Assembly: GCA_017546585.1 (NCBI GenBank)
Contig: JAFYWC010000098.1
Span: 64,360-98,864 of the forward strand
Direction: 5' to 3'
Length of the DNA stretch: 34,505 nucleotides
DNA from: Bacteroidales bacterium
GTDB taxonomy: Bacteria > Bacteroidota > Bacteroidia > Bacteroidales > UBA932
Positions within the stretch are counted from its first letter, which is position 1. Every line of letters begins with the position of its first letter. The notes under the pieces were generated by a model. It made no database searches. It saw only the letters and a program-made list of their open reading frames with translations, and was not told the origin of the DNA. The translations under genes were made by a program, and so were the position numbers. This document shows, in pieces, positions 3,197 to 25,332 of this stretch.

Positions 3197-3290
3197 GAAC
3201 AGCCTGTAGCTTCCATAGGCCCCCTCCCACTTTGTGGGCCCCTCCCCCTACGCGGGGGTGCGAATGCCAATTCCAGCTATCAGGCAGTTC
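3197..3290. repeat. Palindromic element 1 (GC-rich double-hairpin core with complementary arms)
   Basis: The arms 3197-3220 and 3266-3290 are imperfect reverse complements (18 of 25 aligned positions). Between them lies a 42-nt core (3221-3262) with two hairpins, CCCAC-TTT-GTGGG and CCCCC-TACGC-GGGGG, joined by GGCCCCTCCC. The core recurs almost base for base at 25257-25299. TTCCA occurs in direct orientation at both core edges (3211-3215 and 3271-3275), exactly where the arm pairing fails. It sits between alaS and lptG. Confidence 0.85.
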
Positions 3291-3302
3291 TAAAGATAAT
3301 AA

Positions 3303-3352
3303 GTCGGCTTGCCGACCGGCCCGGGTAGGGCCGAAATCCCCCTGATAGGGGG
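3303..3352. repeat. Three consecutive perfect hairpins
   Basis: GTCGGC-TT-GCCGAC (3303-3316), CGGCCC-GGGTA-GGGCCG (3317-3333) and CCCCCT-GAT-AGGGGG (3338-3352) follow each other almost without spacing. The last one continues as GGGGGTGC, as the second hairpin of the palindromic core elements also does, so it may be a diverged relative. No U-tract follows on either strand. Confidence 0.75.
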
Positions 3353-3371
3353 TGCAGGGGGTTAAGATACC

Positions 3372-3413
3372 CGAAGTTAGTTGAACTAGCGGGTAGCGAG
3401 TTCAACTAACTTC
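3372..3413 (-). terminator. Perfect 15-bp inverted repeat enclosing the alaS stop codon
   Basis: The arm 3372-3386 is the exact reverse complement of 3399-3413, with a 12-nt loop that contains most of the alaS TAG (3386-3388). It could fold in the alaS mRNA as a strong hairpin. There is no U-run after it, so intrinsic termination is uncertain; an mRNA 3'-end stabiliser or attenuator before lptG is equally possible. Confidence 0.6.
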
Positions 3414-6001
3414 GCGGCAGCTGCGGAAAGTCCGTCCACGGACTTTCCGCCAGCTGTCGCCAATCCTGGCTGTCCGCCGCCGCCACCCATAACGAGCTTG
3501 GCTGCCTCACGGACATCTGTACCTGCATTGTGTCCAGCCTTCACGAGGTCCTCAGTGTACATAAGGAGGAGCTGTGGCTTGCCCGCAGCCTCGAACGCTG
3601 CAGCAATCACGAGATTCTGAGCCTCCTTCTGAAGCATAAACGCTGCATTCTTGAGCATAACAGGATCCATTGGAGTGTCGATCACAACGACATTCTTGCC
3701 GTTCATCTCAACTGCCTTCTCCTTGAGAGTGCCCTTGAGAGCAAGAGTCTTCTCCTTAGCAATCTCTTCCATCTGCTTCTTGAACGCCTCGTTCTCCTCA
3801 ACCATCTTTCTGATTGCACCAGCAAGATCAGGAACATTGTTGAAGAATGCCTTCGCTGTGCGGATTGTCTCCGCCATCTCGTCTACGAGAGCCTCAGCGT
3901 GAACGCCTGTTGTAGCCTCGATACGACGTACTCCGGCAGCAACTGCAGACTCTGAAACGAGCTTGAAGAAGCCGATGCGGCCTGTAGCCGATGCGTGTGT
4001 ACCACCACAGAGCTCGCAAGAATCGCCGAACTTCACTACGCGTACGCTGTCGCCGTACTTCTCTCCGAAGAGTGCCATCGCACCCATCTCCTGAGCCTCT
4101 TCCATAGTAGCGTTGCGGTTCTCGTCAAGCTGGTAGTTCGCTCTGATGAGGGCATTTACACGGCTCTCCACTGCCTTGATCTGCTCGTCGCTGAGCTTCT
4201 CGAAGTGTGAGAAGTCGAAACGGAAGTACTTGTCGCATACGAATGAACCCTTCTGCTCCACGTGTGTTCCGAGGATCTCACGGAGTGTCTGGTGGAGGAG
4301 GTGGGTAGCCGAGTGGTTGTTCTCGATCTGAGCTCTTCTCTCTGCGTCTACGTGGAGAGTGAAACTCTCTGTGCAGTCTGCAGGGATGCGCTCTGCTACG
4401 TGGATAGTAAGGTTGTTCTCCTTGATTGTGTTTACGATGTTGATCTTCTCGCCGCTCTCTGAAAGGATGTATCCGGTGTCGCCTACCTGTCCACCCATCT
4501 CTGCATAGAACGGTGTGCGCTCGAATACGAGCTGGAACATAGTCTTGTTCTTTGCCTTCACTGTGCGGTGACGTGTGAGCTGAACGCCCTCGAGCTCGGT
4601 GTAGTCGTAGCCGAGGAACTCGATGTTGTCGCAGTGTGCGAACTCAACCCAGTCTCCTGACTCGATCGCAGTAGCGTTGCGCGCTCTGTCCTTCTGCTTC
4701 TGAAGCTCTGCCTGGAAGCCCTCGATGTCGATCTTGTAGCCCTTCTCAGAAGCGATGAGCTCAGAAAGGTCGATAGGGAATCCGAATGTGTCATAGAGGA
4801 CGAATGCATCCTCTCCGCTGATGATCTTGGTCTCTGCTGACTTTGCCATAATGTTGTCCATCAGGCGGATACCTCTGTCGAGAGTGCGGAGGAAAGCCAT
4901 CTCCTCCTCCTTGATCACGCGCTCGATGAGAGTCTGCTGCTTGACGATCTCCGGGTAGAACTCACCCATATCGTCAACGAGCTGCTGCACGAGACGGCAG
5001 ATGAAAGGCTCGTTGAATCCGAGGAATGTGTAGCCGTAGCGTACTGCACGGCGGAGGATACGACGGATCACATATCCTGCCTTTACATTCGAAGGAAGCT
5101 GGCCGTCTGCGATAGAGAAGCTGATCGCACGGATGTGGTCAGCGATTACACGCATAGCGATGTCTTCCTCAGTTGTATTTCCATACTTGTGTCCTGAAAG
5201 TTCCTCGATCTTGCCGATCATTCCAGTGAACACGTCAGTGTCATAGTTTGACTGCTTGCCCTGAAGTGCCATACAGAGACGCTCGAATCCCATACCTGTA
5301 TCCACGTTCTTGTTAGGGAGAAGCTCGAGCTCACCGCTGGCCTTGCGGTTGTACTGCATAAACACGTTGTTCCAGATCTCGATCACAAGGTGATGATCCT
5401 TGTTTACGAGTGATGCGCCCGGCACGGCTGCGCGCTCCTCGTCAGAGCGGAGGTCGATGTGGATCTCAGAGCAAGGACCGCAAGGACCTGTGTCGCCCAT
5501 CTCCCAGAAGTTGTCCTTCTTGTTTCCGAGAAGGATCCTGTCCTCAGGAAGGTGCTTCTTCCAAGCCTCCATTGCCTCCACGTCGAGTGTAGTGCCGTCA
5601 GCCTCTGAACCCTCGAATACTGTAGCGTAGAGTCTTTCCTTGTCGAGCTTGTACACCTCAGTGAGGAGTTCCCAAGCCCAGTCGATCGCCTCCACCTTGA
5701 AGTAGTCGCCGAAGCTCCAGTTTCCGAGCATCTCGAACATTGTGTGGTGGTAGGTGTCGCGGCCGACCTCCTCGAGGTCATTGTGCTTTCCGCTGACACG
5801 CAGACATTTCTGGCTGTCGGCAACCCTCTTCCATTTGGCAGGGCTGTTGCCGAGGAACCAATCCTTGAACTGGTTCATACCAGCGTTGGTAAACATAAGT
5901 GTAGGGTCGTTCTTTACGACCATAGGTGCCGATGGCACGATCTGGTGCCCCTTGGACGCAAAGAAGTCCAGGAATGCTTTTCTTATTTCTTTTGAAGTCA
6001 T
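3386..6001 (-). CDS. alaS: Alanyl-tRNA synthetase
   Basis: 871 residues, full length for a class II AlaRS, which charges tRNA-Ala in the cytosol. The N-terminal catalytic domain opens [19 protein letters not shown] and has the motif 2 region [14 protein letters not shown]. The editing domain has [10 protein letters not shown] (zinc ligand histidines) and [16 protein letters not shown] (C-x3-H). The C-terminal DHHA1-like region ends with the glycine run [15 protein letters not shown] chose ATG 6001 rather than a TTG at 6022, because the longer form would overlap the promoter box at 6020-6027. Its 3' end is embedded in two long palindromes. Confidence 0.97.
3417..3456 (-). repeat. Near-perfect palindrome inside the alaS coding end
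   Basis: CAGCTG plus a 12-nt arm (3424-3435) is mirrored by its reverse complement at 3438-3449, followed after a one-base bulge by CAGCTG. It encodes the conserved [15 protein letters not shown] tail of AlaRS, so codon choice has to support both protein and palindrome. Confidence 0.8.
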
Positions 6002-6019
6002 ATCTCGTGAATTAACTCG

Positions 6020-6027
6020 CAAAAATA
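6020..6027 (-). promoter_or_regulatory. Bacteroidota -7 promoter box for alaS
   Basis: On the minus strand this reads TATTTTTG, matching TAnnTTTG, and ends 18 nt before the alaS ATG. The upstream sequence is AT-rich without a clear -33 TTTG. Confidence 0.55.
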
Positions 6028-6121
6028 CTATAATTTCCGTAAAATTCCATACAAAAAAGCCATTTCCTTACCCATATAGGATTTTTTATATATTTTTTAT
6101 AGATGTGTAGATGATTTTCAT

Positions 6122-6129
6122 TACCTTTG
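6122..6129 (+). promoter_or_regulatory. Bacteroidota -7 box giving a near-leaderless transcript
   Basis: TACCTTTG matches TAnnTTTG and ends only six bases before the ATG at 6136. A T-rich block around 6091-6100 is in the -33 position. In this promoter class transcription starts a few bases after the box, so the mRNA should begin at or within a few bases of the start codon. Confidence 0.6.
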
Positions 6130-6135
6130 CCCGAT

Positions 6136-7152
6136 ATGCCTAGCAACAAACAGTACATATTCAACAGTAAAACCCTGTCATACGAGGTCAAGAAACGCTC
6201 GAAGACGTCCCGATTCCTGAGATCGATCGCCCTTCTGGTGTTGAGTTTCCTTATGACGGGCCTCTATTGCTGGATATATACCTCTGTGCTCGGCCTTGAC
6301 TCTCCAAAGACCGCACTTCTCAAGAAGAAGAATGCGGAATGGTCTTCGAAGATCGAGGTCCTCAACAGACAGCTGGACGAGTACAGCACGGCTCTGGCGT
6401 CTCTTCAGATGAGAGACGATGAGATCTACAGGTCGCTCTTCGGTATGAACGAGATACCTTCTGCGGTGAGAAATGCCGGTTTCGGTGGTGTGAACCGCTA
6501 CGCTCATCTTGATGAGGTGGATCCTGACGGCCTGCTCAAGAAGACTGCGGTAAAGCTTGATGTGCTGACCAAGAAGTCATATGTGCAGAGCAAGTCTTTC
6601 GACGAAGTGGCGCAGCTCTCCAGACGCGCCGGTGAGATGGCCTCCTGCATTCCGGCCATCCCGCCTGTCAATCCGGATCCTAAGATTTACCGTCTTTCAA
6701 GCAGTTTCGGCTACAGAAAGGATCCGTTCTCGGGTCGACAGAAGCGCCATACAGGCGTGGACTTTGCGCTCAAGCCGGGCAATCCGTTGTATGCTACCGG
6801 CGACGGAGTGGTGGAGTCGGTGAAGTTTGAACTTTTCGGCTACGGAAACCAGGTCGTGATCGATCACGGCTTCGGTTACAAGACCAGATATGCGCATATG
6901 AAGACCATCGGCGTGGCCGAGGGAATGAAGGTGAAGAGGGGAGAGTGCATCGGCCTCAGCGGAAATTCCGGACGCTCTTCGGGACCTCACCTGCATTACG
7001 AGGTGTTGTATAAAGGCGCATACGTGAATCCGGCAAACTACTATGACCTGTCGATCACTCCGGAGGAGTATGCGACTATGGTTCAGGATATTGCAGACGC
7101 ATCGGAGAGGATAACCCTCCATCCGTCACACCAGAAGAAGAGGAAGAAGTGA
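6136..7152 (+). CDS. Membrane-anchored M23 metallopeptidase (first of tandem pair)
   Basis: 338 residues. A short basic cytosolic N-terminus is followed by one membrane segment (about residues 26-48, IALLVLSFLMTGLYCWIYTS), a coiled-coil-like region, and a C-terminal M23 (LytM-type) zinc endopeptidase domain. Zinc-ligand motifs are intact: RHTGVDF for H and D, and GPHLHYE for the HxH. The family cleaves peptidoglycan cross-links or regulates amidases in the periplasm. I chose ATG 6136 over an in-frame TTG at 6127 because the TTG lies inside the promoter box. The stop overlaps the next gene (TGATG), so the paralogues are translationally coupled. Confidence 0.9.
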   Translation: MPSNKQYIFNSKTLSYEVKKRSKTSRFLRSIALLVLSFLMTGLYCWIYTSVLGLDSPKTALLKKKNAEWSSKIEVLNRQLDEYSTALASLQMRDDEIYRSLFGMNEIPSAVRNAGFGGVNRYAHLDEVDPDGLLKKTAVKLDVLTKKSYVQSKSFDEVAQLSRRAGEMASCIPAIPPVNPDPKIYRLSSSFGYRKDPFSGRQKRHTGVDFALKPGNPLYATGDGVVESVKFELFGYGNQVVIDHGFGYKTRYAHMKTIGVAEGMKVKRGECIGLSGNSGRSSGPHLHYEVLYKGAYVNPANYYDLSITPEEYATMVQDIADASERITLHPSHQKKRKK

Positions 7153-8102
7153 TGAAGAGAGAATACGCATACGATAAGGAAAATATGAGGTTCCGCAAGG
7201 TGACTACGTCCGTCTGGAAGGTGGTGCGTAAGTTCTTGCTGTTCATCCTTGTTACAATGTCTATGGCGGTGCTGTACTATGTGCTCTTCGCGCTGGTGTT
7301 CAGTTCCGAGACTGAAAAGCGCCTCAAGATGGAGAACGACCTTTATAGGCAGGAGATTCCGGAACTTGAGCGCAAGGAAAGGCTTCTTGCTGACGTCGTC
7401 GAAGGTCTTCAGGCAAGAGACAACAGGATATATGAGGAGATCTTCCACACTTCCGCTCCGGATATGAATCCGATGTCTGCGGTGAACTTCCTTGAGGGAC
7501 TGGATTCGATTCCGGATGACAACATCGTAAGTTATGCGGAAAAGAAACTGGCACATCTGGAAAGGAGCGCCAGCAATGTGGATGAGAATTTCAGACGTGT
7601 CTTCGAGGCTGTCCAGAATCAGGATTTCATTATGCCTCCGATGACCAACCCGTTGAATGACTTTACATTCGCCCAGACCGGAGCGTCGGTCGGCGACAAG
7701 ATAAACCCGTTCTACAAGGTCAGCATAAGGCATAACGGTCTTGATATGCTTGCGCATTCGGGAGAGCCGGTGTATGCTGCGGCGGACGGAGTGGTGAAGG
7801 AGGTCGTCAGGTCAAGGAAAGGACTCGGAAACCAGGTTGTGATCGACCACGGCAACGGCTACCATACAAGGTATGCTCATCTTGCGGATATGGAAGTCGT
7901 GAGAGGAAGAGTGGTCAAGAAAGGCACAAGGCTCGGCTATGTGGGAGTGTCCGGCAACTCGTTTGCCCCTCATCTCCACTATGAAGTGCTGAGGGATACC
8001 GTTGTCCTGGATCCGGTGAATCATCTGTTCGCATCCGTGACACCGGAGGACTATATGAATATACTGATAATGTCCGTATCTACCGGACAGTCAATGGATT
8101 GA
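7152..8102 (+). CDS. Membrane-anchored M23 metallopeptidase (second of tandem pair)
   Basis: 316 residues with the same architecture as its upstream neighbour: basic N-terminus, one membrane segment (FLLFILVTMSMAVLYYVLFALVF), a coiled-coil-rich periplasmic stretch, then an M23 domain with RHNGLDM and APHLHYE zinc motifs intact. Both proteins share the block GNQVVIDHG and a tyrosine-arginine-histidine stretch, so they arose by duplication but have diverged strongly. I chose ATG 7152, which shares its A with the upstream TGA; a GTG at 7149 is less likely. It is followed one base later by a MerR-like gene, so all three are probably one operon. Acting as a hetero-pair on the cell wall is an inference. 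Confidence 0.9.
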   Translation: MKREYAYDKENMRFRKVTTSVWKVVRKFLLFILVTMSMAVLYYVLFALVFSSETEKRLKMENDLYRQEIPELERKERLLADVVEGLQARDNRIYEEIFHTSAPDMNPMSAVNFLEGLDSIPDDNIVSYAEKKLAHLERSASNVDENFRRVFEAVQNQDFIMPPMTNPLNDFTFAQTGASVGDKINPFYKVSIRHNGLDMLAHSGEPVYAAADGVVKEVVRSRKGLGNQVVIDHGNGYHTRYAHLADMEVVRGRVVKKGTRLGYVGVSGNSFAPHLHYEVLRDTVVLDPVNHLFASVTPEDYMNILIMSVSTGQSMD

Positions 8103-8103
8103 T

Positions 8104-8421
8104 ATGGAGAAATATTTCTACACAATCGGCGAAGTGGCCGAAATTCTCAAAGAGAGCACTTCTTTGGTGAGATTCTGGTCGAACGAGTTTCCGAAGTTCA
8201 TCAAGCCTAAGAGAAACGCCAAGGGAAACAGACTTTTCACAAAGGAGGATGTGGAGACGTTCAAGCACATCCATCTTCTTGTGAAGGTGCAGGGTCTTAC
8301 GCTTGAAGGAGCGGCGAAGAGGCTCCAGGGCGACAGAAAGGAAGTCATAAGCAAATCGCGCGTGCTTGATACGCTCAAGAGCATCCGCCAGCAGCTCTCT
8401 GAAATCCGTCAGGACTTGTAA
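8104..8421 (+). CDS. Small MerR-family DNA-binding protein
   Basis: 105 residues. The N-terminal winged-helix motif is MerR-like: YTIGEVAEILKESTSLVRFW, then a wing and FTKEDVETFKHIHLLVKVQGLTLEGAAKRL. After it there is only a short helical tail and no effector-binding domain or metal-ligand cysteines, so it is a minimal MerR. The start ATG follows the M23 stop by one base. Neighbours are the M23 pair upstream and nif3 downstream (4-nt gap). Its target is unknown; autoregulation of this operon is only a guess. Confidence 0.85.
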   Translation: MEKYFYTIGEVAEILKESTSLVRFWSNEFPKFIKPKRNAKGNRLFTKEDVETFKHIHLLVKVQGLTLEGAAKRLQGDRKEVISKSRVLDTLKSIRQQLSEIRQDL

Positions 8422-8425
8422 CATT

Positions 8426-9202
8426 ATGAAAGTAAAGGATATAATAAAGGTGATAGAGGACTTTGCTCCTCTCGGTATCCAGGAAGGCTGGGACAACAGC
8501 GGACTGTGCATCGGCTCTCCGGAGGACGACGTTACCTCCGTCCTCCTCGCGCTTGACTGCACTCCGGAACTCGTGGACGAGGCAGTGGCTGTTGGTGCCG
8601 ATATGATCGTGACCCACCATCCGCTCATCTTCTCAGGCCTGAAGAAGATTTCGCCGGACAACAAGATCGGTGCGGCGGTGACGAAGGCCATCAAGGCCGG
8701 AGTCGCGGTGTACGCGGCGCATACCAATGCCGACAAGGTGATTGCCGGAGTCAGCGGAGCGATGGCTGCGAAACTGGGCCTCCAGAACGTCAGGATTCTT
8801 GACGAAGATGCTGAGGGAGTGGGACTTGGAGTGGTCGGAGAACTCCCGGAACCTATGCAGTCGGAGGATCTGGTTGCATTCGTGAAGGAGAAGTTCGGCC
8901 TTAAGGTCGTGAAGACTTCCAAGCCGCTGGAGAAGGCCGTGAGCCGCGTAGCGGTGTGCGGCGGATCAGGCGGCTCGCTCATCGGAGCGGCACGCAAGGC
9001 CGGAGCCGATGTATATGTGAGCGGAGACATTTCCTACCATAATTATTTCACTGAAGATGGCTTTATGATTATGGATATCGGCCATTATGAGAGTGAAATA
9101 GAGATAGTTGACATTTTAATTTCTTTGATAAAGAAAAATTTTCCTACCTTTGCGGTTCGCATTACGCAGAATATAAATAGTAACCCGATATATTATTTTT
9201 AA
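8426..9202 (+). CDS. Nif3-like dinuclear metal center hexameric protein
   Basis: 258 residues, the short Nif3 form without the PII-like insert domain. Metal-ligand motifs are present: VTHHPLIFSG for the two histidines, AAHTNADK, and a C-terminal GHYESE for His and Glu. These proteins form toroidal hexamers with two metals per subunit; some are reported as GTP cyclohydrolase I type 2, but the role in most bacteria is unsettled. I chose ATG 8426, directly after the merR stop at 8421, because the longer in-frame version would overlap merR and begins with low-complexity sequence. The 3' coding end (FPTFAV) carries a promoter-like sequence for the next gene. Confidence 0.9.
   Translation: MKVKDIIKVIEDFAPLGIQEGWDNSGLCIGSPEDDVTSVLLALDCTPELVDEAVAVGADMIVTHHPLIFSGLKKISPDNKIGAAVTKAIKAGVAVYAAHTNADKVIAGVSGAMAAKLGLQNVRILDEDAEGVGLGVVGELPEPMQSEDLVAFVKEKFGLKVVKTSKPLEKAVSRVAVCGGSGGSLIGAARKAGADVYVSGDISYHNYFTEDGFMIMDIGHYESEIEIVDILISLIKKNFPTFAVRITQNINSNPIYYF
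9145..9152 (+). promoter_or_regulatory. Bacteroidota promoter inside the nif3 3' end
   Basis: TACCTTTG matches TAnnTTTG, and a TTTG lies 17 nt upstream at 9124-9127. It would drive the zinc-ribbon gene at 9209 with a leader of roughly 50 nt. The box encodes the conserved Nif3 residues PTF. Confidence 0.55.
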
Positions 9203-9208
9203 GCAGAT

Positions 9209-10018
9209 ATGGCTAAAAAGACTAAGAAAATCGAAACTCCTATCGACCAGAGAGAGACATTCGTATCGATTCAGAAGAGCTTTGCAGACTCGGATCTCAG
9301 TGTGTCTGAGAAACTTAAGACTCTGTATATTCTTCAGCAGGCTGACACTGAGATTGACAAGATCCTTCAGCTTAGAGGTGAACTTCCTTTGGAGGTAGAG
9401 CAGCTTGAGGAGGAGATCGCAGACCTCACAGCGAAGTCTGCACGCATCGCAGAGCAGATCGAGGAGATGACAAAGTTCATCGCTGAGAACAAGCTCAACA
9501 TCACAGAGTGCGATGCTCAGATCGAGAAGTACAAGGGACAGCTCGACAACATCTCAAACAGCCGCGAGTACGACTCACTCAACAAGGAGATCGAGAACCA
9601 GGGCCTCCTCAGACAGATTGCTGAGAAGCACATCGGTGAGGCTAAGGACCGTATCTTCGACAAGAAGAACGACCTCGAGATTGTAAAGGAGAAGATCTCA
9701 GTAAGAACAGAGGATCTCGCAGCTAAGAAGCAGGAGCTTGCTACTATCGTAGAGGCTACTTCAAAGGATGAGGAGAAGCTTCGTGCAAACAGAGAGGCTT
9801 GCGCAGCAAAGATCGACGCAAGAACTATGAGCGCATACGAACGCATCCGCGAGAGCTGCAACAACCACCTCGCAGTAGTGTCTGTATTCAACGGTGACTC
9901 TTGCGGTGGCTGCTTCAACACAATCGCTCCACAGAGACTTATCGACATCGCTTCAAACAGAAAGATGATCATCTGCGAGCATTGCGGTAGAATCCTCGTA
10001 AATCCAGATTTCGAATAA
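9209..10018 (+). CDS. Coiled-coil zinc-ribbon protein (C4-type)
   Basis: 269 residues. Residues 20-210 are almost entirely charged heptad-like sequence (for example EVEQLEEEIADLTAKSARIAEQ is a clear coiled coil). The C-terminus has a C4 zinc ribbon: CGGC, about 20 residues, then CEHC, in DSCGGCFNTIAPQRLIDI and IICEHCGRILVNP. The zf-RING_7/C4-type family is widespread in bacteria and of unsettled function, with nucleic-acid binding suspected. Codon use is strongly biased to a few codons, as in the pur genes here, which suggests high expression. It has its own promoter candidate inside nif3. Confidence 0.85.
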   Translation: MAKKTKKIETPIDQRETFVSIQKSFADSDLSVSEKLKTLYILQQADTEIDKILQLRGELPLEVEQLEEEIADLTAKSARIAEQIEEMTKFIAENKLNITECDAQIEKYKGQLDNISNSREYDSLNKEIENQGLLRQIAEKHIGEAKDRIFDKKNDLEIVKEKISVRTEDLAAKKQELATIVEATSKDEEKLRANREACAAKIDARTMSAYERIRESCNNHLAVVSVFNGDSCGGCFNTIAPQRLIDIASNRKMIICEHCGRILVNPDFE

Positions 10019-10047
10019 TCCGGTACATATATTATTATATATAGGAT

Positions 10048-11574: not shown

Positions 11575-11592
11575 GAAACAATCATCATTGAA

Positions 11593-12459: not shown

Positions 12460-12469
12460 TTCAATATCT

Positions 12470-12886: not shown

Positions 12887-12942
12887 TTACGCCCCTGGAT
12901 GCAGGGCTGGCTTGAACAACAATTAAACTAATTATAGCTATA

Positions 12943-13849: not shown

Positions 13850-15211
13850 ATGATGAAGACATTTTCAATAGGTGGTATCCACCCAAGCGACAGCAAGATT
13901 TCGAAGGACTGCAAGATCGAGGTTCTTCCTGTTCCTTCCAAGGTATTCATTTCTGTGGCTCAGCATCTCGGCGCCCCTGCAACTCCGATCGTGAAGGCAG
14001 GTGATGTGGTGAAGGCCGGTCAGGTGATCGCAGAGCCTGCAGGATTCATTTCAGCTTATGTACATTCTTCGGTGTCAGGTACTGTGAAGTCAGTCGGACC
14101 TCGCAAGGACATCGCCGGAAACAATATGACTCACATCGAGATCGATGTAGAGGGTGACGAGTGGGCAGAGGGAATCGACCTCACAGACACTCTCGTCACA
14201 GCAATCCCAGAGGACAACAAGGAGATTCTTGAGAAGATCAAGATGAACGGTGTCGTAGGTCTCGGAGGTGCTACCTTCCCTGCACACGTGAAGCTTTGTC
14301 CTCCTCCAGGCAAGAAGGCTGACTGCCTCATCCTCAACGGTGCTGAGTGTGAGCCTTATCTTACTTCAGACTACCGCATTATGCTCGAGAGAAGCAAGGA
14401 GATTGTCGTAGGTGCCGCTATTATGAAGCAGGTGCTCGGAGGATGTCCTGCTGTGATCGGTATCGAGGAGAACAAGCCAGAGGCAATCAAGGCTATGACT
14501 GCAGCAGTGGCTGAACTCCAGAAGACAGCAAAGGGATACGAGGGCATCTCTGTTATGACTCTCAAGAAGAAGTATCCTCAGGGCGGTGAGAAGCAGCTTA
14601 TCGACGCAGTTATGAAGCGTCAGGTGAAGTCTATGGGACTTCCTATCGACGTGGGTGCTGTGGTTCAGAACGTTGCTACTTCATTGGCTGTATATGAGGC
14701 TGTCCAGAAGAATATGCCGTTGGTTACCAATGTGATGACCATCACAGGTGACTGTCTCCCTATGGAGAACCAGCACAACTACAAGTTCCGTATCGGTATG
14801 CCGCTTTCATACATCGCAGAGGTTGCAGGAGGTATTCCTGAGAGTGCTGCGAAGGTGATCAGCGGAGGTCCTATGATGGGTAAGGCGATCGCAAATCTTG
14901 ATGCGACTACAGTGAAGGGTTCGTCTTCACTCCTTTACCTGACCGCGGAGCAGACAGTGCGTGGCGTTGAGTCGGCTTGTATCCGTTGCGGCAAATGTGC
15001 CGAGGCCTGCCCTATGGGTCTCGAGCCGTTCCTGCTCAATAAGTATGCTCGCAACAATATGATGGACGAGCTTGAGGAGAATGCGGTACAGGATTGTATC
15101 GAGTGCGGATGCTGTCTCTACAGCTGTCCGGCAAACATTCCTCTTCTCGACATCATCCGTCTCGCAAAGGGCGACGTCATCAAAATTATAAGAGGCAGGG
15201 GTCAAAGGTAA
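13850..15211 (+). CDS. rnfC: Rnf complex subunit RnfC
   Basis: 453 residues. The N-terminal barrel-like segment and the central NADH/FMN-binding region (GLGGATFPAHVKL, ILNGAECEPYLTSDYR) match RnfC. Two [4Fe-4S] motifs near the C-terminus are CIRCGKCAEACPMG and CIECGCCLYSCPAN. RnfC is the cytosolic subunit that reduces NAD with electrons coming from RnfB. ATG at 13850 is followed by a second ATG at 13853, and either could start. The last nine codons and the stop form the left arm of palindromic element 3. Confidence 0.95.
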   Translation: MMKTFSIGGIHPSDSKISKDCKIEVLPVPSKVFISVAQHLGAPATPIVKAGDVVKAGQVIAEPAGFISAYVHSSVSGTVKSVGPRKDIAGNNMTHIEIDVEGDEWAEGIDLTDTLVTAIPEDNKEILEKIKMNGVVGLGGATFPAHVKLCPPPGKKADCLILNGAECEPYLTSDYRIMLERSKEIVVGAAIMKQVLGGCPAVIGIEENKPEAIKAMTAAVAELQKTAKGYEGISVMTLKKKYPQGGEKQLIDAVMKRQVKSMGLPIDVGAVVQNVATSLAVYEAVQKNMPLVTNVMTITGDCLPMENQHNYKFRIGMPLSYIAEVAGGIPESAAKVISGGPMMGKAIANLDATTVKGSSSLLYLTAEQTVRGVESACIRCGKCAEACPMGLEPFLLNKYARNNMMDELEENAVQDCIECGCCLYSCPANIPLLDIIRLAKGDVIKIIRGRGQR

Positions 15212-15305
15212 AAACTAAATCCCTCCCATCGCAAGCGATGGGCCCCTCCCGTTCACGAGGCCACGGGCGGCCACGGTTTTTACCTTTGCCCCAAGCCTCT
15301 ATAAT
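15185..15305. repeat. Palindromic element 3 (divergent core, long complementary arms over the rnfC stop)
   Basis: The left arm (15185-15215) and the reverse complement of the right arm (15276-15305) align over about 30 nt with few mismatches. The core holds CCCATCGC-AA-GCGATGGG, then CCCCTCCC, then a second stem CCCG...CGGG. The format matches elements 1 and 2 while the hairpin sequences differ. The rnfC stop (15209-15211) is inside the left arm. Confidence 0.85.
15281..15288 (+). promoter_or_regulatory. Promoter-like TACCTTTG in the right arm of element 3
   Basis: It matches TAnnTTTG and lies 41 nt upstream of the rnfD ATG. It is the reverse complement of CAAAGGTA at the rnfC stop, so it may be a by-product of the palindrome. 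No good -33 box is seen. Confidence 0.35.
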
Positions 15306-16292: not shown

Positions 16293-16295
16293 GTT

Positions 16296-16889: not shown

Positions 16890-16892
16890 ACA

Positions 16893-17483: not shown

Positions 17484-17504
17484 TTAATTGTAGGAGAAAT
17501 TGTT

Positions 17505-18107: not shown

Positions 18108-18301
18108 TGACAGCACTGGAATTGCTTGACAAAGCAGAAGAACTGAGGCGTAACTGCCGCTTTGGAGATGCGATAAACTTCTACAGAGCGGCAGCGGATG
18201 CCCCGGATGCTACTGAAGAAATAAAAAGAAAATCCCTCGCATCCGTCGAGCTGATGCAAGAGATTAACGGTTTTGTAAACGTTGACCTTATGAATCCATA
18301 G
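18107..18301 (+). CDS. Small TPR-like protein coupled to rnfA
   Basis: 64 residues. Two amphipathic helices in LELLDKAEELRRNCRFGDAINFYRAAA have the spacing of a single TPR-like repeat (Ala/Leu/Tyr positions); the remainder is also helical. It has no signal peptide or membrane segment. I do not recognise a named family. Support for it being real is the TAATGA overlap with rnfA, ordinary codon use, and the fact that its last codons and TAG stop lie within the operon terminator, so the transcript covers it fully. A role as a cytosolic Rnf accessory is an inference from position only. Confidence 0.65.
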   Translation: MTALELLDKAEELRRNCRFGDAINFYRAAADAPDATEEIKRKSLASVELMQEINGFVNVDLMNP

Positions 18302-18316
18302 GGTCAACGTTTTTTT
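18277..18316 (+). terminator. Intrinsic terminator of the rnf operon
   Basis: The arms 18277-18287 and 18302-18312 are perfect 11-bp reverse complements, followed by a T-rich run. The TAG stop of the small gene (18299-18301) is at the end of the loop. It also separates the convergent GH20 gene. Confidence 0.88.
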
Positions 18317-18327
18317 ATGGCCTGTGC

Positions 18328-20316
18328 TTATCTGTATATTATACCTTCCGGCTCGGATATGCTGCTGTCTTCGCGTACTGTGACAGGTATGAATGCCGCG
18401 TGCCAGTTTGGCGAGTTGAGCGTGTGAGGACAGTGCAGGACGATGGTGTTCCAGCCTGCCTTGAGAGGTATGCGGGCGGGTTCTCTCATCCAGAAGAACT
18501 GCTCGTCTGTGTAAGGGAGTTCATTCGGAGCCTGATGCCAGGTCTGATGGTGATATCTGTATGCTCCCGGCTCGTTCCAGAGGACTGCAGGGAATATTTC
18601 CGTCTGTGTTGCAGTACTCTGTGAAGACACATATACGTGTCCTCCGTTTTCCCATTTCCCCTGTTCACCGATTCCGTCAGACATTCTTGTGGATCTTGAA
18701 GGCGAGTCGAAGCCTATCCAGGCAGTGATGATTGTGTCTCTTTCAACGAAGATTTCAGTGTTGAGCCAAATGTCGGCCGCTACATTCTGGGGGATGCCGT
18801 TCTCTCTGCAGAGGGCATTCAGGTCTACGCATCCGCCCCAGGCGTCTGCGTTTACAGGCAGTGAACATTCCGCCTCTACGAAGTCTCCGTTGGTTTTGAG
18901 GACAGGTTTTGTCGTTATGGTCGCGTGCCATTCGATGCCTGCATTTGCAACCCATCTTACATTCCAATCTTTGAGGAAATTATCCCTATGATATGACATC
19001 TTCTCCTCAAAATCCAACAGGGCCTCGTATGCTTCAGTGCCGGGTTTTGGGAAGAGGTAGGTGTGCGATCCTTCGTATCCTTTGCCGCCTCCCCAGCTGC
19101 TCTGGGCGAAGCTGAGCAGGCCTTCCGGCATACCGTTGTGAGGGAAGGTCTTCGTCTTGTCAGCCACTCTTACATCGTTCCACAGGCACAGTATTCCTCC
19201 GAGTGCCTTTTCGTCAGCCTCTTCGACAGAGCAAAGCTGGTGGAGGAAGAAGTTGGCTGTGTTGATGATCGGATTGCCGAGGTTGAGGTAGCCCATATAT
19301 GAGTCTATGTATCGGCGCGGGAAGCCTTTGCCTGAGGCTCTTCTGCCTTCGTCTGACCATATCTGCGAGATGGTGCTTTCAGAAGATGGGAGTCCCGGAT
19401 ACCAGGCAAGGGGAGTACGCCCGCCGGAGATGATGATGTCCTCGCAGAATTTCATAAATCCGTATGGATCATTGATATACACTTCATCTGAACCGATGTG
19501 GACATATGGGCACATCTCTGCCGGAATCTCGTTCATAAACTCCTCGAGGCACACTTTCAGCACTTCTTTTCCCTGTTCGGATGCCATACCGAATCCGAAC
19601 GTTCTGTCAAAGTACTGGCTGTGTCCCGGCATATCGATTTCCGGTATTACGGTTATGCCTCTGTGCGCTGCGTATTCTATGAGTTCGCGGATCTGTGCAT
19701 ATGTGTAGAACCTGCCTTCGTCGCGTCCTTTCCTCTGGTATTGAGGGTCATTCAGCTGCGGGAATGCCTTGCATTCGATTCTCCAGGCTGGATTGTCTGT
19801 TAGATGCCAGTGGAATACGTTGATCTTGTAGAAGGCGAACAGGTCTATCTCCTTCTTCAACGTTTCGATTTCGCGGAAGTTTCTTCCGGTGTCGTGCATA
19901 AATCCTCTGATCGGGAATGCCGGCCTGTCGCTTATGTCGAGGTCGTGAATTGCCTTTCCCTTGAATGCAGCGTCGGACTTGGAACCTCTGGACTTCGGGC
20001 TATCGGATCCGATGAAATCTTCAGGGCCCACGCCTGTAAGCTGGGCGAGTGTCGCTCTGGCGTGCACAATGCCGGCCCTGTCCTTGGCTTTGAGTTCCAC
20101 TTTACCCTTGCGGGCAATGATGACATATTCTTCCGGATTGAGGTCGGATGATGGATCGATCGTTTCGGTGATCTTCTTGATCCTGAATGTCTTACCTGTA
20201 TCCATATGCATCTCCGCCGGCTCCGGAATCAGCATCTGCTTCGGAGTCGTGGTCTGAGCTTGAGTGGTCAGCGATAGAATGGTGGCTGTGATCAGCAGTG
20301 AAAGAATCTGTTTCAT
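18328..20316 (-). CDS. Exported GH20 beta-N-acetylhexosaminidase
   Basis: 662 residues. The signal peptide is MKQILSLLITATILSLTTQA. An N-terminal GH20b-like domain (LIPEPAEMHMDTGKTF) is followed by the catalytic barrel: HWHLTDNPAWRIE (around 169), EIDMPGHSQYF (around 226) and HIGSDEVYI with the catalytic Asp277-Glu278 pair. GH20 enzymes use substrate-assisted catalysis to release terminal GlcNAc or GalNAc from glycans. The usual HxGGDE has Ser at the second Gly. Residues after about 480 form an extra beta-rich C-terminal region of unknown role. It is probably periplasmic or outer-membrane linked. It faces purE divergently and has its own near-leaderless promoter. Confidence 0.9.
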   Translation of the reverse strand: MKQILSLLITATILSLTTQAQTTTPKQMLIPEPAEMHMDTGKTFRIKKITETIDPSSDLNPEEYVIIARKGKVELKAKDRAGIVHARATLAQLTGVGPEDFIGSDSPKSRGSKSDAAFKGKAIHDLDISDRPAFPIRGFMHDTGRNFREIETLKKEIDLFAFYKINVFHWHLTDNPAWRIECKAFPQLNDPQYQRKGRDEGRFYTYAQIRELIEYAAHRGITVIPEIDMPGHSQYFDRTFGFGMASEQGKEVLKVCLEEFMNEIPAEMCPYVHIGSDEVYINDPYGFMKFCEDIIISGGRTPLAWYPGLPSSESTISQIWSDEGRRASGKGFPRRYIDSYMGYLNLGNPIINTANFFLHQLCSVEEADEKALGGILCLWNDVRVADKTKTFPHNGMPEGLLSFAQSSWGGGKGYEGSHTYLFPKPGTEAYEALLDFEEKMSYHRDNFLKDWNVRWVANAGIEWHATITTKPVLKTNGDFVEAECSLPVNADAWGGCVDLNALCRENGIPQNVAADIWLNTEIFVERDTIITAWIGFDSPSRSTRMSDGIGEQGKWENGGHVYVSSQSTATQTEIFPAVLWNEPGAYRYHHQTWHQAPNELPYTDEQFFWMREPARIPLKAGWNTIVLHCPHTLNSPNWHAAFIPVTVREDSSISEPEGIIYR

Positions 20317-20323
20317 AATGATG

Positions 20324-20331
20324 CAAATTTA
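20324..20331 (-). promoter_or_regulatory. Bacteroidota -7 box giving a near-leaderless GH20 transcript
   Basis: The minus strand reads TAAATTTG, followed by seven bases and then the GH20 ATG. No clear -33 TTTG was found. Confidence 0.55.
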
Positions 20332-20381
20332 AGCCATTATCCTTTAATCCGGTTTCTTTTTGCTGCCAAGTTTGGCGCAAC

Positions 20382-20504
20382 TGTGCGCGAAGTGACAAAA
20401 TTATGTCACGTTACGCACAAGGTATCTGTGTAAGTGTTTGATAATAAGGTGTCTGTGTGAAGCGTCTTTGCGCGAAGTGACAGAGAATCGTCACGTCGCG
20501 CACG
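20382..20504. repeat. Unit 1 of a tandem 123-nt inverted-repeat-bounded element
   Basis: A 38-nt quasi-palindrome (20382-20419), a 47-nt linker and a second 38-nt quasi-palindrome (20467-20504). Each palindrome has GTGAC-N8-GTCAC at its centre (20392-20409; 20477-20494). The outermost 15 nt of the unit are inverted copies matching at 13 of 15 positions. Confidence 0.8.
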
Positions 20505-20521
20505 TTAACAGGTCTTGGTTC

Positions 20522-20644
20522 TGCTCCCGAAGTGACTGATATTGGTCACATTAGTTGCACGGTTGTTTTGTAATTGTTTGATTGATAATGTGTTGGTGGA
20601 TTAGTGTGCTCCTTGCGAGACAAAAAGTAGTCACTTCGGGAGCA
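20522..20644. repeat. Unit 2 of the tandem 123-nt inverted-repeat-bounded element
   Basis: It has the same 38-47-38 layout as unit 1, 17 nt downstream of it. Terminal repeats TGCTCCCGAAGTGAC (20522-20536) and its exact reverse complement (20630-20644) bound the unit. The 47-nt linker is similar to the linker of unit 1 (for example TAAGTGTTTGAT against TAATTGTTTGAT). The second palindrome has GAGAC in place of GTGAC on its left. Confidence 0.8.
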
Positions 20645-20695
20645 ATGTGCTGGGGTGTGTGGATATTCGGTGAAAAAAATCCGCAGATATAGGTT

Positions 20696-20714
20696 AGTAT
20701 TACTAAGTAATACT
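20696..20714. promoter_or_regulatory. Candidate operator: 19-nt palindrome upstream of purE
   Basis: AGTATTACTAAGTAATACT has perfect 9-bp arms around a single central base. It ends 12 nt before the purE -7 box, so it covers the -33 region. A bound regulator would block or contact RNA polymerase. The regulator is unknown. Confidence 0.6.
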
Positions 20715-20726
20715 CCCAAATTTTGT

Positions 20727-20734
20727 TATCTTTG
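20727..20734 (+). promoter_or_regulatory. Bacteroidota -7 box for the purE operon
   Basis: TATCTTTG matches TAnnTTTG. The predicted leader to the purE ATG at 20977 is about 235 nt, unusually long compared with the other genes here. Confidence 0.6.
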
Positions 20735-20753
20735 CCGTTTGGAAAAAAGCAGG

Positions 20754-20814
20754 GGGTAACGTAGACATATTTTCATATTTCTGCACAACCTTCCCATAGC
20801 CAAAAGAGAAATTA
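20754..20814 (+). repeat. purE leader direct repeat, copy 1
   Basis: A 61-nt segment repeated at 20885-20945. The first 40 nt differ at one position, an 11-nt middle is variable, and the last 10 nt (AGAGAAATTA) are identical. It contains TTTCATATTT (20771-20780), the exact reverse complement of 20973-20982 at the purE start. Confidence 0.85.
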
Positions 20815-20853
20815 CTAAACATCAACCTTAGCTTTGAGCGAAGCGATGGTAAG

Positions 20854-20874
20854 TCCCTTTCCCGAGGAAAGGGA
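20854..20874 (+). repeat. Hairpin between the purE leader repeats
   Basis: TCCCTTT, a 7-nt loop, then AAAGGGA. No U-tract follows, so it is not a typical terminator, but it could structure the leader. Confidence 0.6.
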
Positions 20875-20884
20875 TTTAGGGAAA

Positions 20885-20945
20885 GGGTAACGTGGACATA
20901 TTTTCATATTTCTGCACAACCTTCGATAAAGCTCAAGAGAAATTA
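20885..20945 (+). repeat. purE leader direct repeat, copy 2
   Basis: Second copy of the 61-nt leader repeat, 131 nt downstream of the first. It ends 31 nt before the purE ATG. The anti-start sequence TTTCATATTT is at 20902-20911. Confidence 0.85.
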
Positions 20946-20976
20946 ACCTGAAATAAATCAAACAACATTAGAAAAT

Positions 20977-21444
20977 ATGAAAGTAGCTGTAATTATGGGA
21001 TCGACCAGCGACCTTGAAATTATGTCGCAGGCAATCAATGTCCTCGAGGGATTCGGTGTCGAGGTGGTTAAGAAAGTCATCAGTGCACACAGAACTCCAG
21101 ACCTTATGTGCGAGTTCGCGAAGTCAGCAAAGGCAAACGGCATCGGAGCCATCATCGCCGGAGCGGGTGGAGCAGCACACGTAGCAGGTGTCGTGGCAGG
21201 TATGACCACAGTTCCTGTGATCGGAGTTCCAATCCAGACAAAGGCACTCGGCGGAATGGATTCACTCCTTTCGATCGTTCAGATGCCTGCAGGTATCCCT
21301 GTAGCTACAATGGCTATCAACGGAGCAAAGAACGCGGGTCTTTTCGCAGCACAGATCCTCGCTCTTACAGACGCTGAGCTCTCTGCAAAGCTCGACCAGT
21401 TCAGAGCAGAGCAGACTCAGAAGGTTCTTGAAGCTACAATCTAA
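20977..21444 (+). CDS. purE: N5-carboxyaminoimidazole ribonucleotide mutase PurE
   Basis: 155 residues, standard for a class I PurE. The N-terminal phosphate-binding MGSTSDLEIM, SAHRTPDLM and the GAGGAAHVAGVVAGMTTVPVIGVP block are conserved. It interconverts N5-CAIR and CAIR in IMP synthesis. purK, its usual class I partner, is not in the window. It is the first gene of the pur cluster, 21 nt before purL, behind an unusually long and repeated leader. Confidence 0.96.
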   Translation: MKVAVIMGSTSDLEIMSQAINVLEGFGVEVVKKVISAHRTPDLMCEFAKSAKANGIGAIIAGAGGAAHVAGVVAGMTTVPVIGVPIQTKALGGMDSLLSIVQMPAGIPVATMAINGAKNAGLFAAQILALTDAELSAKLDQFRAEQTQKVLEATI

Positions 21445-21465
21445 CCGACGCAACTTATTCAAAAT

Positions 21466-24400
21466 ATGAGCAATTATCGCATTTACGTAGAAAAGTATCC
21501 TGAATTTCAGGTGGAGGCACGCAGCCTTCAGAGCGAGCTGAACGAGAACCTTCAGCTCGATCTCGCGGCTCTGCGCCTTCTTAACGTGTATGACCTCTTC
21601 GGATTCTCAGAGGAACTCCTCGAGAAGAGCCGCTACAGCGTGTTCGGAGAGATCGTGACTGACAGCGTTACTGACGAGTGTGACCTCTCAGACGCAAAAT
21701 ACATCGCCGTGGAGTACCTTCCAGGCCAGTTCGACCAGCGTGCAGCATCTGCTGTAGACTGTGTCCGCCTTATCGATCCTGCAGCCAAGGTAAGCATCAA
21801 GAGCTCAAAGCTCATCATCCTTCCTGCTGACACAACAGATGAGGTGATTGCAAAGATCAAGAAATATTACATCAACGCTGTGGAGTCTCGTGAGAAGGAT
21901 CTCACAAAGCTTACAGCAATGGAGCAGCCAGAGGTGACTCCGGTTCCGGTTCTCGAGGGTCTTACTGCCCTCACAGAGGAGGAACTCGCGCCTTACTGCA
22001 AGAAGATGGGTCTCGCTATGAACGCAGACGACCTTCGCGAGGTGGTGAACTACTTCAAGACTGAGGGCCGTGATCCGTCTGAGACAGAGCTCCGTATCCT
22101 CGATACATATTGGAGTGACCACTGCCGTCACACTACATTCACAACCGAACTCGAAGACATCAACGTTGAGGAGTCTTTCCTCAAGGAGGAGATCGACGGA
22201 ACTCTCAATCTCTATATGAAGATCCGTCAGGAGCTTGGCCGTGAGAACAAGGGCCTTAACCTTATGGATATGGCTTGCATCGGTGCACGCTACCTCAAGT
22301 CAAAGGGCCTTCTCGACGATATGGAGGTCAGCGAGGAGAACAATGCCTGCAGCATCTATGTAGACGTTGACATCGTTGACGACGAGGGCGAGATGACCAC
22401 AGAGAAGTGGCTTCTCCAGTTCAAGAACGAGACTCACAACCACCCTACAGAGATCGAGCCTTTCGGTGGCGCGGCAACTTGTCTCGGCGGTGCAATCCGT
22501 GACCCGCTCTCTGGCCGTGCATATGTTTACCAGGCTATGCGTGTGACAGGTGCAGGTGACATCTATCTCCCTGTGTCTGAGACAATGGCCGGTAAGCTTC
22601 CTCAGAGCATCATCTCACGCAAGGCAGCTCACGGTTACTCAAGCTACGGTAACCAGATCGGTCTCGCAACTACCCACGTTCGTGAGGTTTACCACGAGGG
22701 TTATGTTGCAAAGCGTCTTGAGGTAGGAGCTGTGGTAGGAGCAGTGAAGGCTGACAGCGTACGTCGCGAGAGCCCGGCTCCTGGTGACGTAGTCCTCCTC
22801 CTCGGTGGCCGTACAGGCCGTGACGGAGTCGGCGGAGCTACAGGTTCTTCAAAGGAGCACACTGAGGAGTCTCTCGAGACTTGCGGAAGTGAGGTTCAGA
22901 AGGGTAATGCACCTGAGGAGAGAAAGCTCCAGAGACTTTTCCGTCGTCCTGAGGTGACCAAGCTTATCAAGAAATCAAACGACTTCGGTGCCGGCGGTGT
23001 CAGTGTGGCTATCGGCGAGCTTACCGACGGTCTTGACATCTACCTTGACAGGGTGCCTGTGAAGTACAACGGACTCAACTCTACAGAGCTTGCTATCAGT
23101 GAATCTCAGGAGCGTATGTCAGTTGTGATCGAGGCTAAGGACAAGGAAGCAATGATGGCATACTGCGCAAGCGAGAACGTTGAGGTTACATATGTGGCTG
23201 ACGTTACAGACAGAAAGCGTATGCGTATGTTCTACGGTGACAAGGTGATCGTTGACCTTTCACGTGAGTTCATCGACAGCGCAGGAGCAAAGCATTATGC
23301 AAAGGCTACTGTAGGTGCAGTAGAGCAGAAGAATCCGTTCGAGCGCACTGTTGAGGGTGACACTCTCAAGGACAAGGTGTTCTACAACCTCCAGGATCCT
23401 AACGTGACATCACAGAAGGGTCTCATCGAGATGTTCGACTCTACAATCGGCCGTTCGACAGTGCTTATGCCGTTCGGAGGTATGCTTCAGACAACTGAGA
23501 CTCAGGTGTCTGTCCAGAAGCTCCCTACTGACGGATACACAGATACAGCGTCTATAATGGCGTTCGGTTACAACCCGTTCATCGCAAGCTGGAGCCCATA
23601 CCACGGTGCTGCCTATGCAGTGGTTGAGGCGTGTGCAAAGGTTGTTGCAGCGGGTGCTTCATACGAGAAGATGCGCTTCTCTTACCAGGAGTACTTCGAG
23701 CGTATGACAGACCGCAAGTCTTGGGGCAAGCCGCTTTCGGCACTCCTCGGAGCCCTCAAGATGCAGGTTGAGTTCGGTCTTCCTTCAATCGGAGGAAAGG
23801 ACTCTATGAGCGGTACATTCGAGAACATCAACGTACCTCCAATGCTTATGGCCTTCGGTATCACTACAGTTGATGCCGGTCAGGTAATCTCTCCTGAACT
23901 CAAGTTCGAGGGCAACAAGCTTTACCTCATCAAGCATACACCGGAGGCTAACTATATGCCTGACGTAGAGCAGCTCAAGGCTAACTGGGCTTACGTGCAC
24001 GAGCAGATCCAGGAGGGCAACATCGTTTCAGGTTACGCTCTCGGATTCGGCGGTATCGCTGAGGCTATCTGCAAGATGTCATTCGGTAACGGTCTTGACG
24101 CAAAGATCAAGGTTGACGAGAAGGAACTCTTCAACTATGGCTACGGTTCTATCCTCGTTGAGGCTGAGGAGGCACTCGACTATCCGAATGCAATCCTCAT
24201 CGGTGAGGTGACAGACGGAGAGGAGAGCGAACTCACAATCAACGGAACCAAGTTCGACATCTTCGAGCTTATGGCTGTGAACGGCGCCAGATTCGCTGAG
24301 GTTTATCCTGACACAGCAGAGGCTTACCACAAGAAGCTCGTTCCTGCAGGAATGGAGGGTGTGAAGCCGCTCAAGGTGAAGAGATCTGAGATGAAGTACA

Positions 24401-25224
24401 AGGGCGAGCCGGTTGAGAAGCCTATCGCATATCTCCCTGTATTCCCTGGTACAAACTGCGACTACGATTCAGCAAAGGCTTGGCGCAACGCAGGTGCAGA
24501 GGTGCGTATGAGCGTATTCTGCAACTTGACTGAAGATGATATCTTCCGTTCGATCGCTGAGATGAAGAAGAACATCGACGAGTGTCATATCCTTATGCTT
24601 TGCGGTGGATTCTCTGCAGGTGATGAGCCGGACGGAAGCGGTAAGTTCATTGCTAACGTTCTCAACAACAAGGACATCGCTGACGCTATCCACGCTCTCA
24701 TCGACCGTGGCGGTCTCATCCTCGGTATCTGCAACGGATTCCAGGCTCTCGTGAAGTCAGGCCTCCTTCCATACGGACGTCTCGGTCAGGTGACTAAGGA
24801 CAGCCCTACACTCTTCCGTAACGACATCAACCGTCATATCTCTCAGATGGTGACTACACGTGTCGGCACAACAAATTCTCCTTGGCTCAAGGACTTCGCT
24901 ATCGGCGACCTCCACACTATCGCAGTGAGCCACGGTGAGGGTAAGTTCGTTGTGAACGAGGAGTTCGCTAAGGAGCTTTTCGCAAACGGTCAGGTTGCGT
25001 TCCAGTATGTGGATCCGCTCGAGGAGGAGCCTACAATGGAGTCTCCATATAACCCTAACGGTTCATATTACGCGATCGAGGGTATCATCAGCAAGAACGG
25101 TCAGATCCTCGGTAAGATGGGTCACACCGAGCGCTATGAGGAGAATCTCTTCAAGAACATCGATGACGATACTCGTGAGCAGCCATTGTTCCACAATGCA
25201 GTAGCGTATTTTAGAGGCGAGTAA
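21466..25224 (+). CDS. purL: Phosphoribosylformylglycinamidine synthase, large single-chain form
   Basis: 1252 residues, the fused form that combines the synthetase and glutaminase found as PurL, PurQ and PurS in other bacteria. An N-terminal PurS-like domain precedes a linker with LDTYWSDHCRHTTF, two AIRS-like ATPase halves (FKNETHNHPTEIEPFGGAATCLGG marks the first; split here as two conserved stretches, KNETHNHPTEIEPF and GGAATCLGG), and a C-terminal class I glutaminase with nucleophile GICNGFQAL and histidine in VSHGEGKF. It converts FGAR to FGAM using ATP and glutamine. The stop is followed 4 nt later by the left arm of palindromic element 2. Confidence 0.97.
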   Translation: MSNYRIYVEKYPEFQVEARSLQSELNENLQLDLAALRLLNVYDLFGFSEELLEKSRYSVFGEIVTDSVTDECDLSDAKYIAVEYLPGQFDQRAASAVDCVRLIDPAAKVSIKSSKLIILPADTTDEVIAKIKKYYINAVESREKDLTKLTAMEQPEVTPVPVLEGLTALTEEELAPYCKKMGLAMNADDLREVVNYFKTEGRDPSETELRILDTYWSDHCRHTTFTTELEDINVEESFLKEEIDGTLNLYMKIRQELGRENKGLNLMDMACIGARYLKSKGLLDDMEVSEENNACSIYVDVDIVDDEGEMTTEKWLLQFKNETHNHPTEIEPFGGAATCLGGAIRDPLSGRAYVYQAMRVTGAGDIYLPVSETMAGKLPQSIISRKAAHGYSSYGNQIGLATTHVREVYHEGYVAKRLEVGAVVGAVKADSVRRESPAPGDVVLLLGGRTGRDGVGGATGSSKEHTEESLETCGSEVQKGNAPEERKLQRLFRRPEVTKLIKKSNDFGAGGVSVAIGELTDGLDIYLDRVPVKYNGLNSTELAISESQERMSVVIEAKDKEAMMAYCASENVEVTYVADVTDRKRMRMFYGDKVIVDLSREFIDSAGAKHYAKATVGAVEQKNPFERTVEGDTLKDKVFYNLQDPNVTSQKGLIEMFDSTIGRSTVLMPFGGMLQTTETQVSVQKLPTDGYTDTASIMAFGYNPFIASWSPYHGAAYAVVEACAKVVAAGASYEKMRFSYQEYFERMTDRKSWGKPLSALLGALKMQVEFGLPSIGGKDSMSGTFENINVPPMLMAFGITTVDAGQVISPELKFEGNKLYLIKHTPEANYMPDVEQLKANWAYVHEQIQEGNIVSGYALGFGGIAEAICKMSFGNGLDAKIKVDEKELFNYGYGSILVEAEEALDYPNAILIGEVTDGEESELTINGTKFDIFELMAVNGARFAEVYPDTAEAYHKKLVPAGMEGVKPLKVKRSEMKYKGEPVEKPIAYLPVFPGTNCDYDSAKAWRNAGAEVRMSVFCNLTEDDIFRSIAEMKKNIDECHILMLCGGFSAGDEPDGSGKFIANVLNNKDIADAIHALIDRGGLILGICNGFQALVKSGLLPYGRLGQVTKDSPTLFRNDINRHISQMVTTRVGTTNSPWLKDFAIGDLHTIAVSHGEGKFVVNEEFAKELFANGQVAFQYVDPLEEEPTMESPYNPNGSYYAIEGIISKNGQILGKMGHTERYEENLFKNIDDDTREQPLFHNAVAYFRGE

Positions 25225-25228
25225 CATA

Positions 25229-25332
25229 ATTTGTTGGTAACCAAGTGTTCCAGTGACCCCTCCCACTTTGTGGGCCCCTCCCCCTACGCGGGGGGTGCGG
25301 ATGTCACTTCCACACAATGGTTACCACCAAAT
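25229..25332. repeat. Palindromic element 2 (same core as element 1, different arms)
   Basis: The arms 25229-25257 and 25303-25332 are reverse complements at about 24 of 30 aligned positions. The core 25257-25299 equals the element 1 core apart from one extra G. TTCCA is directly repeated at 25248-25252 and 25308-25312. It fills the purL-purF gap and ends 14 nt before the purF ATG. Confidence 0.87.

Follow-up and report, generated by a model that had tools for sequence, protein, structure and literature searches.

Rickettsia palindromic elements (RPE) have arms that are shared between copies. They are about 150 base pairs (bp) long, dispersed, found in frame in unrelated genes and grouped in ten families (PMC10969869), and with age their repeats reportedly lose identity (PMC6649704, citing earlier work). 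REP repeats with their RAYT (Y1) transposases, including the GTAG and CGTC superfamilies, combine hairpins with an unpaired tag; the units are short (20-40 bp, stems of 5-13 bp), some are intragenic, and CCTC variants of CGTC have been published (PMC3733652). Near-perfect inverted repeats also occur in translated mitochondrial genes of Nematomorpha, with template switching as one possible mechanism (PMC6649704). Template switching makes hairpins and keeps or mends them, as described for RNA genes (PMC8794818), and template-switch mutation at quasi-palindromes is described in yeast (PMC8604942). In this study, we analysed a stretch of 34,505 nucleotides (nt), hereafter the window, from a Bacteroidales bacterium (UBA932, genus Candidatus Cryptobacteroides; contig JAFYWC010000098.1, positions 64,360-98,864), in which three palindromic elements belong to a family dispersed through the genus. 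Its members have a conserved centre and private arms, are present or absent at orthologous junctions, include in-frame insertions, and can change both arms in concert. The family is a new variant of the dispersed, partly in-gene palindromes.

Like RPE, these elements are palindromic, dispersed and inserted in frame in coding genes, many other copies being intergenic; unlike RPE, their arms are mostly near perfect and copy-specific and can change in concert, with bursts of copies as the exception. The two occur in different phyla and are likened here by description. As with REP/RAYT, Y1 genes occur in the same genomes and are present where the repeats multiply. By eye, each stem of the present family is preceded by a tag-like CCCCT; the long private arms and the pseudoknot found here do not figure in the portion of the REP description used. 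The coding palindromes of Nematomorpha are likewise inverted repeats inside genes, but in the part of that account consulted both arms encode conserved protein parts and no dispersed conserved core is described. As in template-switch palindromes, a change in one arm can be accompanied by a change in the other at the same site (5 of 11 sister pairs, below); unlike template-switch quasi-palindromes, the arms here enclose a conserved core, of which a single genome may have up to 37 dispersed copies.

We favour, with a probability of roughly 55%, a family of small dispersed mobile palindromes whose arms drift, each copy on its own, by hairpin-templated recopying, and which a Y1 transposase moves in trans. 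The element would move together with its arms, and its centre would fold into a strong hairpin in single-stranded DNA. Template switching during replication would then rewrite one arm, with the other arm or sometimes the host flank as template, such that the arms of each copy stay nearly perfect while drifting to a sequence of their own. The transposase, of the IS200-like Y1 type, would act in trans. If true, the family would be a natural system in which bacterial hairpin-templated mutation could be measured at as many as dozens of marked loci in one genome; the model also offers an explanation for a mobile repeat with a conserved inside and private ends.

The two-part core, counted in a stricter form, is present in 108 of the 151 genomes of the genus sample (own genome included), reaching 37 copies in one of them, and the copies are dispersed in both orientations. 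It consists of two direct modules, each a CCCCT followed by a stem that opens with CCC and closes with GGG. In the second module another stem interlocks with the first one (e.g. CCCGT..GGCC..ACGGG..GGCC) to give a covarying H-type pseudoknot, whose stems use many different pair combinations among copies. In sequence, the core combines CCCTCCC, a hairpin and GGGCCCCTCCC with this pseudoknot. We read 217 copies, 212 of them distinct (138 from Bacteroidales and 74 from elsewhere; genomes, loci and contigs carry G, L and C numbers below). The complementarity of a copy's own arms exceeded the 99th percentile of arms paired from different copies in 126 of the 138 Bacteroidales copies (median 20 versus 6). 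The initial annotation had described arms complementary within each copy and unrelated between copies, to be checked on many copies; the self-complementarity is borne out by this count, whereas the second half is too strong for some subfamilies, namely those with the type C internal loop and the bursts described below. Arm statistics rest on the 182 of 202 Bacteroidales copies with an arm score of at least 12: median arm length is 28 nt, the longest Watson-Crick run has a median of 17 and a maximum of 38, and the arm pairs comprise 4795 Watson-Crick pairs with 57 G-T, 98 A-C and 211 other mismatches.

At some sites the arms also change between species. The sister species G023 and G047 share 13 orthologous places, two of which were dropped for one-sided or short flank matches. 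In five of the 11 compared (L340/L369, L352/L333, L388/L341, L389/L343 and L393/L335) both arms have changed yet still match each other, with own-arm scores of 16.0-24.4 and cross scores of 8.0-12.6. Median identity over the 11 is 0.71 and 0.70 for the arms, and 0.83 and 0.84 for the flanks. A column-wise count over 17 pairs of copies (19 given; L291/L292 and L162/L006, without the strict core pattern, were dropped) found 18 paired positions changed on both sides with Watson-Crick pairing kept, against 3.4 expected, with six broken and none G-T; this count is blind to insertions and deletions, and the own/cross arm test is the stronger. By eye, L291/L292 show an apparent matched gain or loss in both arms.

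Could such pairing instead be that of a structured RNA, its outer stem under selection and its arm sequences differing since only pairing counts? Of the 138 Bacteroidales copies, 130 contain the pseudoknot, whereas shuffled tails give it in 12.8 on average and 19 at most; most of the eight type C copies, elements 1 and 3 of the window included, have a common TTCC-like internal loop beside the core; and A-C mismatches, equivalent to G-U when read on the opposite strand, exceed G-T. All three would suit an RNA. Selection on RNA pairing should, however, yield many G-U pairs, and on the core strand G-T makes up about 1% of arm pairs, below A-C (57 versus 98); because G-T is not enriched there, hairpin-templated recopying at the DNA level is preferred. 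The occurrence of copies in both orientations and at in-frame coding positions also argues against an RNA, as does the Rfam search of the window and six loci, in which nothing reached gathering score and on which a known RNA family was rejected as the identity. We thus consider a selected RNA stem quite improbable; arm covariation alone is no proof of a functional RNA. As a side observation, three loci (L340, L333 and L026) hold an extra domain within the pseudoknot loop.

In the window, the elements and a neighbouring repeat are laid out as follows.

3190-3220, + strand: left arm of element 1 (type C), pairing with about 3266-3295
3222-3262, + strand: core of element 1, with CCCTCCC, hairpin 1, GGGCCCCTCCC (3236-3246) and the second stem
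3266-3295, + strand: right arm of element 1, pairing with the left arm
3297-3414, strand not assigned: second dispersed repeat, with terminal hairpin arms at 3372-3390 and 3396-3414
15191-15215, + strand: left arm of element 2 (type A), 25 nt, 88% complementary to 15276-15300
15221-15272, + strand: core of element 2, with CCCTCCC (15221-15227), hairpin 1, GGGCCCCTCCC (15240-15250) and the pseudoknot
15248-15252 with 15263-15267 (CCCGT / ACGGG) and 15259-15262 with 15269-15272 (GGCC / GGCC), + strand: pseudoknot stems of element 2
15276-15300, + strand: right arm of element 2, complementary to the left arm
25229-25256, + strand: left arm of element 3 (type C)
25258-25298, + strand: core of element 3, with CCCTCCC (25258-25264), hairpin 1, GGGCCCCTCCC (25272-25282) and the second stem
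25301-25332, + strand: right arm of element 3

The three intergenic palindromes lie about where the initial annotation had placed them. Folded as RNA against 200 dinucleotide shuffles each, the + strands of elements 1, 2 and 3 gave z values of -3.64, -6.52 and -4.62 and beat all shuffles each time, the - strand of element 1 folding less strongly (z -2.29; 5 of 200 shuffles equally good). The annotation had mislabelled the cores, however, pairing 1 with 2: the near-identical ones are those of elements 1 and 3, and core 2 is the divergent one. The window has four GGGCCCCTCCC sites with at most one mismatch, where 0.28 would be expected, and element 1 accounts for two of them; exact matches number 11 in the own genome, on both strands, and none for the reversed control. 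The arm score of element 1 is weak (11.0, equal to and not above the between-copy 99th percentile), and positions 2900-3306, which comprise this element and its surroundings, are 98% identical in the relative G129. Element 2 is orthologous, with similar arms, in six relatives (G129, G026, G024, G021, G032 and G138), and is also found in G066, there with hairpin 1 lost. Its core has counterparts at many other places in relatives (about 81-96% over 60-85 bases or so), and the similarity mostly ends where the arms start. A phage or plasmid origin was rejected for element 2, the only one searched, which had no match in the phage and plasmid sequence collections.

Many copies are intergenic. Others lie inside genes: in 25 of 75 copies read (loci of at most 3 kilobases (kb), some overlapping) the frame is open for at least 60 codons upstream and at least 40 downstream of the copy, a figure that GC-rich DNA inflates. 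Protein matches, obtained for 9 of 10 proteins, name YgiQ, LpxB, RibF, HutI, MtaB, TilS and a SpoU-family rRNA methyltransferase, the last falling below the best NCBIfam cut-off and above the Pfam cut-off; a second protein set, again with 9 of 10 matched, added ATP synthase gamma. Some copies are insertions that keep the frame open in the conserved genes for TilS, ATP synthase gamma, LpxB, RibF, YgiQ and MtaB. Extra open segments are spreading in this way through conserved genes of an animal-gut genus. The methyltransferase site was read in 50 loci, the 30 best matches to an insert-containing query and 20 hand-picked ones. Insert length is divisible by three in 49 of these. A long inverted repeat (score of at least 16.6) is present in each of the 32 inserts that reach 111 nt and missing from 16 of the 18 shorter ones, the longer inserts having more room for one. 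Several different cores occur at this site, each with long arms; hairpins of further families, likewise long-armed but built on different cores, are seen in L290, L293 and L310, in L304 and L305, and in L302, L313, L314 and L321.

Orthologous junctions bear on how the arms arise. Between purL and purF, three relatives (G026, G021 and G066) have 1-15 nt instead of element 3 and neither of its arms; G287 and G298 hold same-type elements with other outer arms, G007 one of another type, and other relatives carry other inserts. G129 was rejected as a clean empty site here, a deletion having removed more than the element. Between rnfC and rnfD, 6 of 20 relatives have a hairpin-free 22-26 nt and several others different inserts; a long hairpin of another kind, with its own loop, occupies this junction in G007, G299 and G236 (L249, L250 and L252). 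Eleven relatives have just 33-55 nt at the alaS junction and are without the second dispersed repeat there. In all these comparisons absence was counted without telling loss from never present. The short junctions, 20 at the three intergenic sites, are too small for a long hairpin.

Insertion of the core into the loops of pre-existing hairpins, as the initial annotation had proposed, is therefore very improbable: the 20 junctions leave no room for such a target, and 16 of 18 short-insert loci at the methyltransferase site are without a long inverted repeat, even though that site does include a bare long hairpin in G069 (L321), with a weaker one in L320, and the different-loop hairpin between rnfC and rnfD also fits such a course. 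The hairpin at 3372-3413, which had been offered as an empty target, is the end of the different repeat at 3297-3414. Parts of that repeat recur elsewhere in relatives; its terminal hairpin uses as one arm the 3' coding end of alaS, and by eye its arms vary in step with alaS in G245 and G210.

The same repeat, by copying the alaS end, speaks for another course, in which the arriving element duplicates its flank in inverted form, fold-back synthesis from the target strand building the second arm. In element 2 the left arm runs over the 3' end of rnfC (13850-15211), its stop codon included. Of the 30 best-matching loci at the methyltransferase site, 12 have a palindrome that extends at least 6 nt, and 8 one that extends at least 12 nt, beyond where the conserved block ends. 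A short-insert homologue there (L311) lacks a right arm and contains 11 nt that agree with the left arm of L286/L287 at 10 of 11 positions. Arms can thus include host flank, and to this extent the annotation's second proposal stands. A one-time creation of the arms on arrival is unlikely, however. The short purL-purF relatives, the kind of locus that was to decide between the two proposals, hold neither arm, arms are later replaced in place, in concert between the sister species, and bursts share theirs along with the core. In the G065 burst the left arm is common to 12 of 12 fetched copies of one subfamily and the right arm to 10 of 12. Three contigs of the own genome (C85, C90 and C105; L008, L009 and L010, first 134-141 bases) start inside one element and have in common the core, an arm and a terminator-like hairpin before diverging beside three different genes; this shared stretch is a recent larger repeat. 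Tentatively, the transmissible unit may in effect be the 40-70 nt pseudoknotted core, which has private arms in Microbacterium and Caloramator as well; it would seed a replication copying of the local flank into arms, each insertion manufacturing its own palindrome, tolerated even inside translated housekeeping genes.

As for the candidate mover, Y1 transposase genes occur in 91 of the 108 element-bearing genomes and in 19 of the 43 others (p 1.6e-6), genomes being counted regardless of kinship, here and in the high-quality subset, where 41 have both, 7 the element only, 6 Y1 only and 9 neither (p 0.001). Y1 is present in 34 of 34 high-quality genomes with at least three copies, and in 74 of 78 such genomes overall; the seven high-quality element genomes without a Y1 match have one or two copies each. 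A reverse transcriptase was rejected as the mover (32 of 108 element genomes versus 10 of 43 without, p 0.55). Two Y1 loci (L236 and L237) have ATCGCCTG hairpins nearby, possibly REP sequences of their own.

Several points weigh against hairpin-templated recopying with Y1 movement in trans. No Y1 match was obtained in four incomplete genomes with 3-13 copies, and six high-quality genomes have Y1 and zero copies. The element was not found in any of the 10 fetched Y1 loci (2.8-3.4 kb; the remaining Y1 matches were not read), for which membership of a Y1 gene cassette was accordingly rejected. Template switching is inferred from sequence and no event was observed; concerted change could also be explained by selection plus compensation, or by re-insertion at the same site, the latter being likely for L352/L333, a pair with different cores. 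Six of the 11 G023/G047 pairs have arms that are identical or cross-matching between species, 63 paired positions have a change on one side only, and the arms of element 2 are kept in several species, so that arm renewal is not constant. The excess of A-C over G-T (98 versus 57, p 0.001), a G-U excess on the opposite strand, is unexplained. Finally, the G065 burst copies are also alike beyond the arms, and a larger unit may have been copied.

Outside Bacteroidales, the same search found the pseudoknot in 31 of 74 copies. Among the matches listed, Microbacterium accounts for three copies, two of which have private arms (scores 17.5 and 16.0) while the third scores 8.5, and the one Caloramator copy also has private arms (12.5); apart from these four loci, long arms were found in 1 of 71 non-Bacteroidales copies. 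Caulobacter, Sphingomonas and Azospirillum (L049, L101, L055, L071 and others) have CCCTCACCCTCCC-hairpin-GGGCCCCTCCCTCTCCC..GGGAGAGGG repeats that contain the core string. These alphaproteobacterial repeats were rejected as members, since they look like a different repeat and long arms are mostly missing. A short literature survey, by title or abstract, found no published description of the family. Beside element 1, positions 725-3181 of the window form one open frame with an LptF/LptG match at its start and a methionyl-tRNA formyltransferase match at its end, an apparent fusion.

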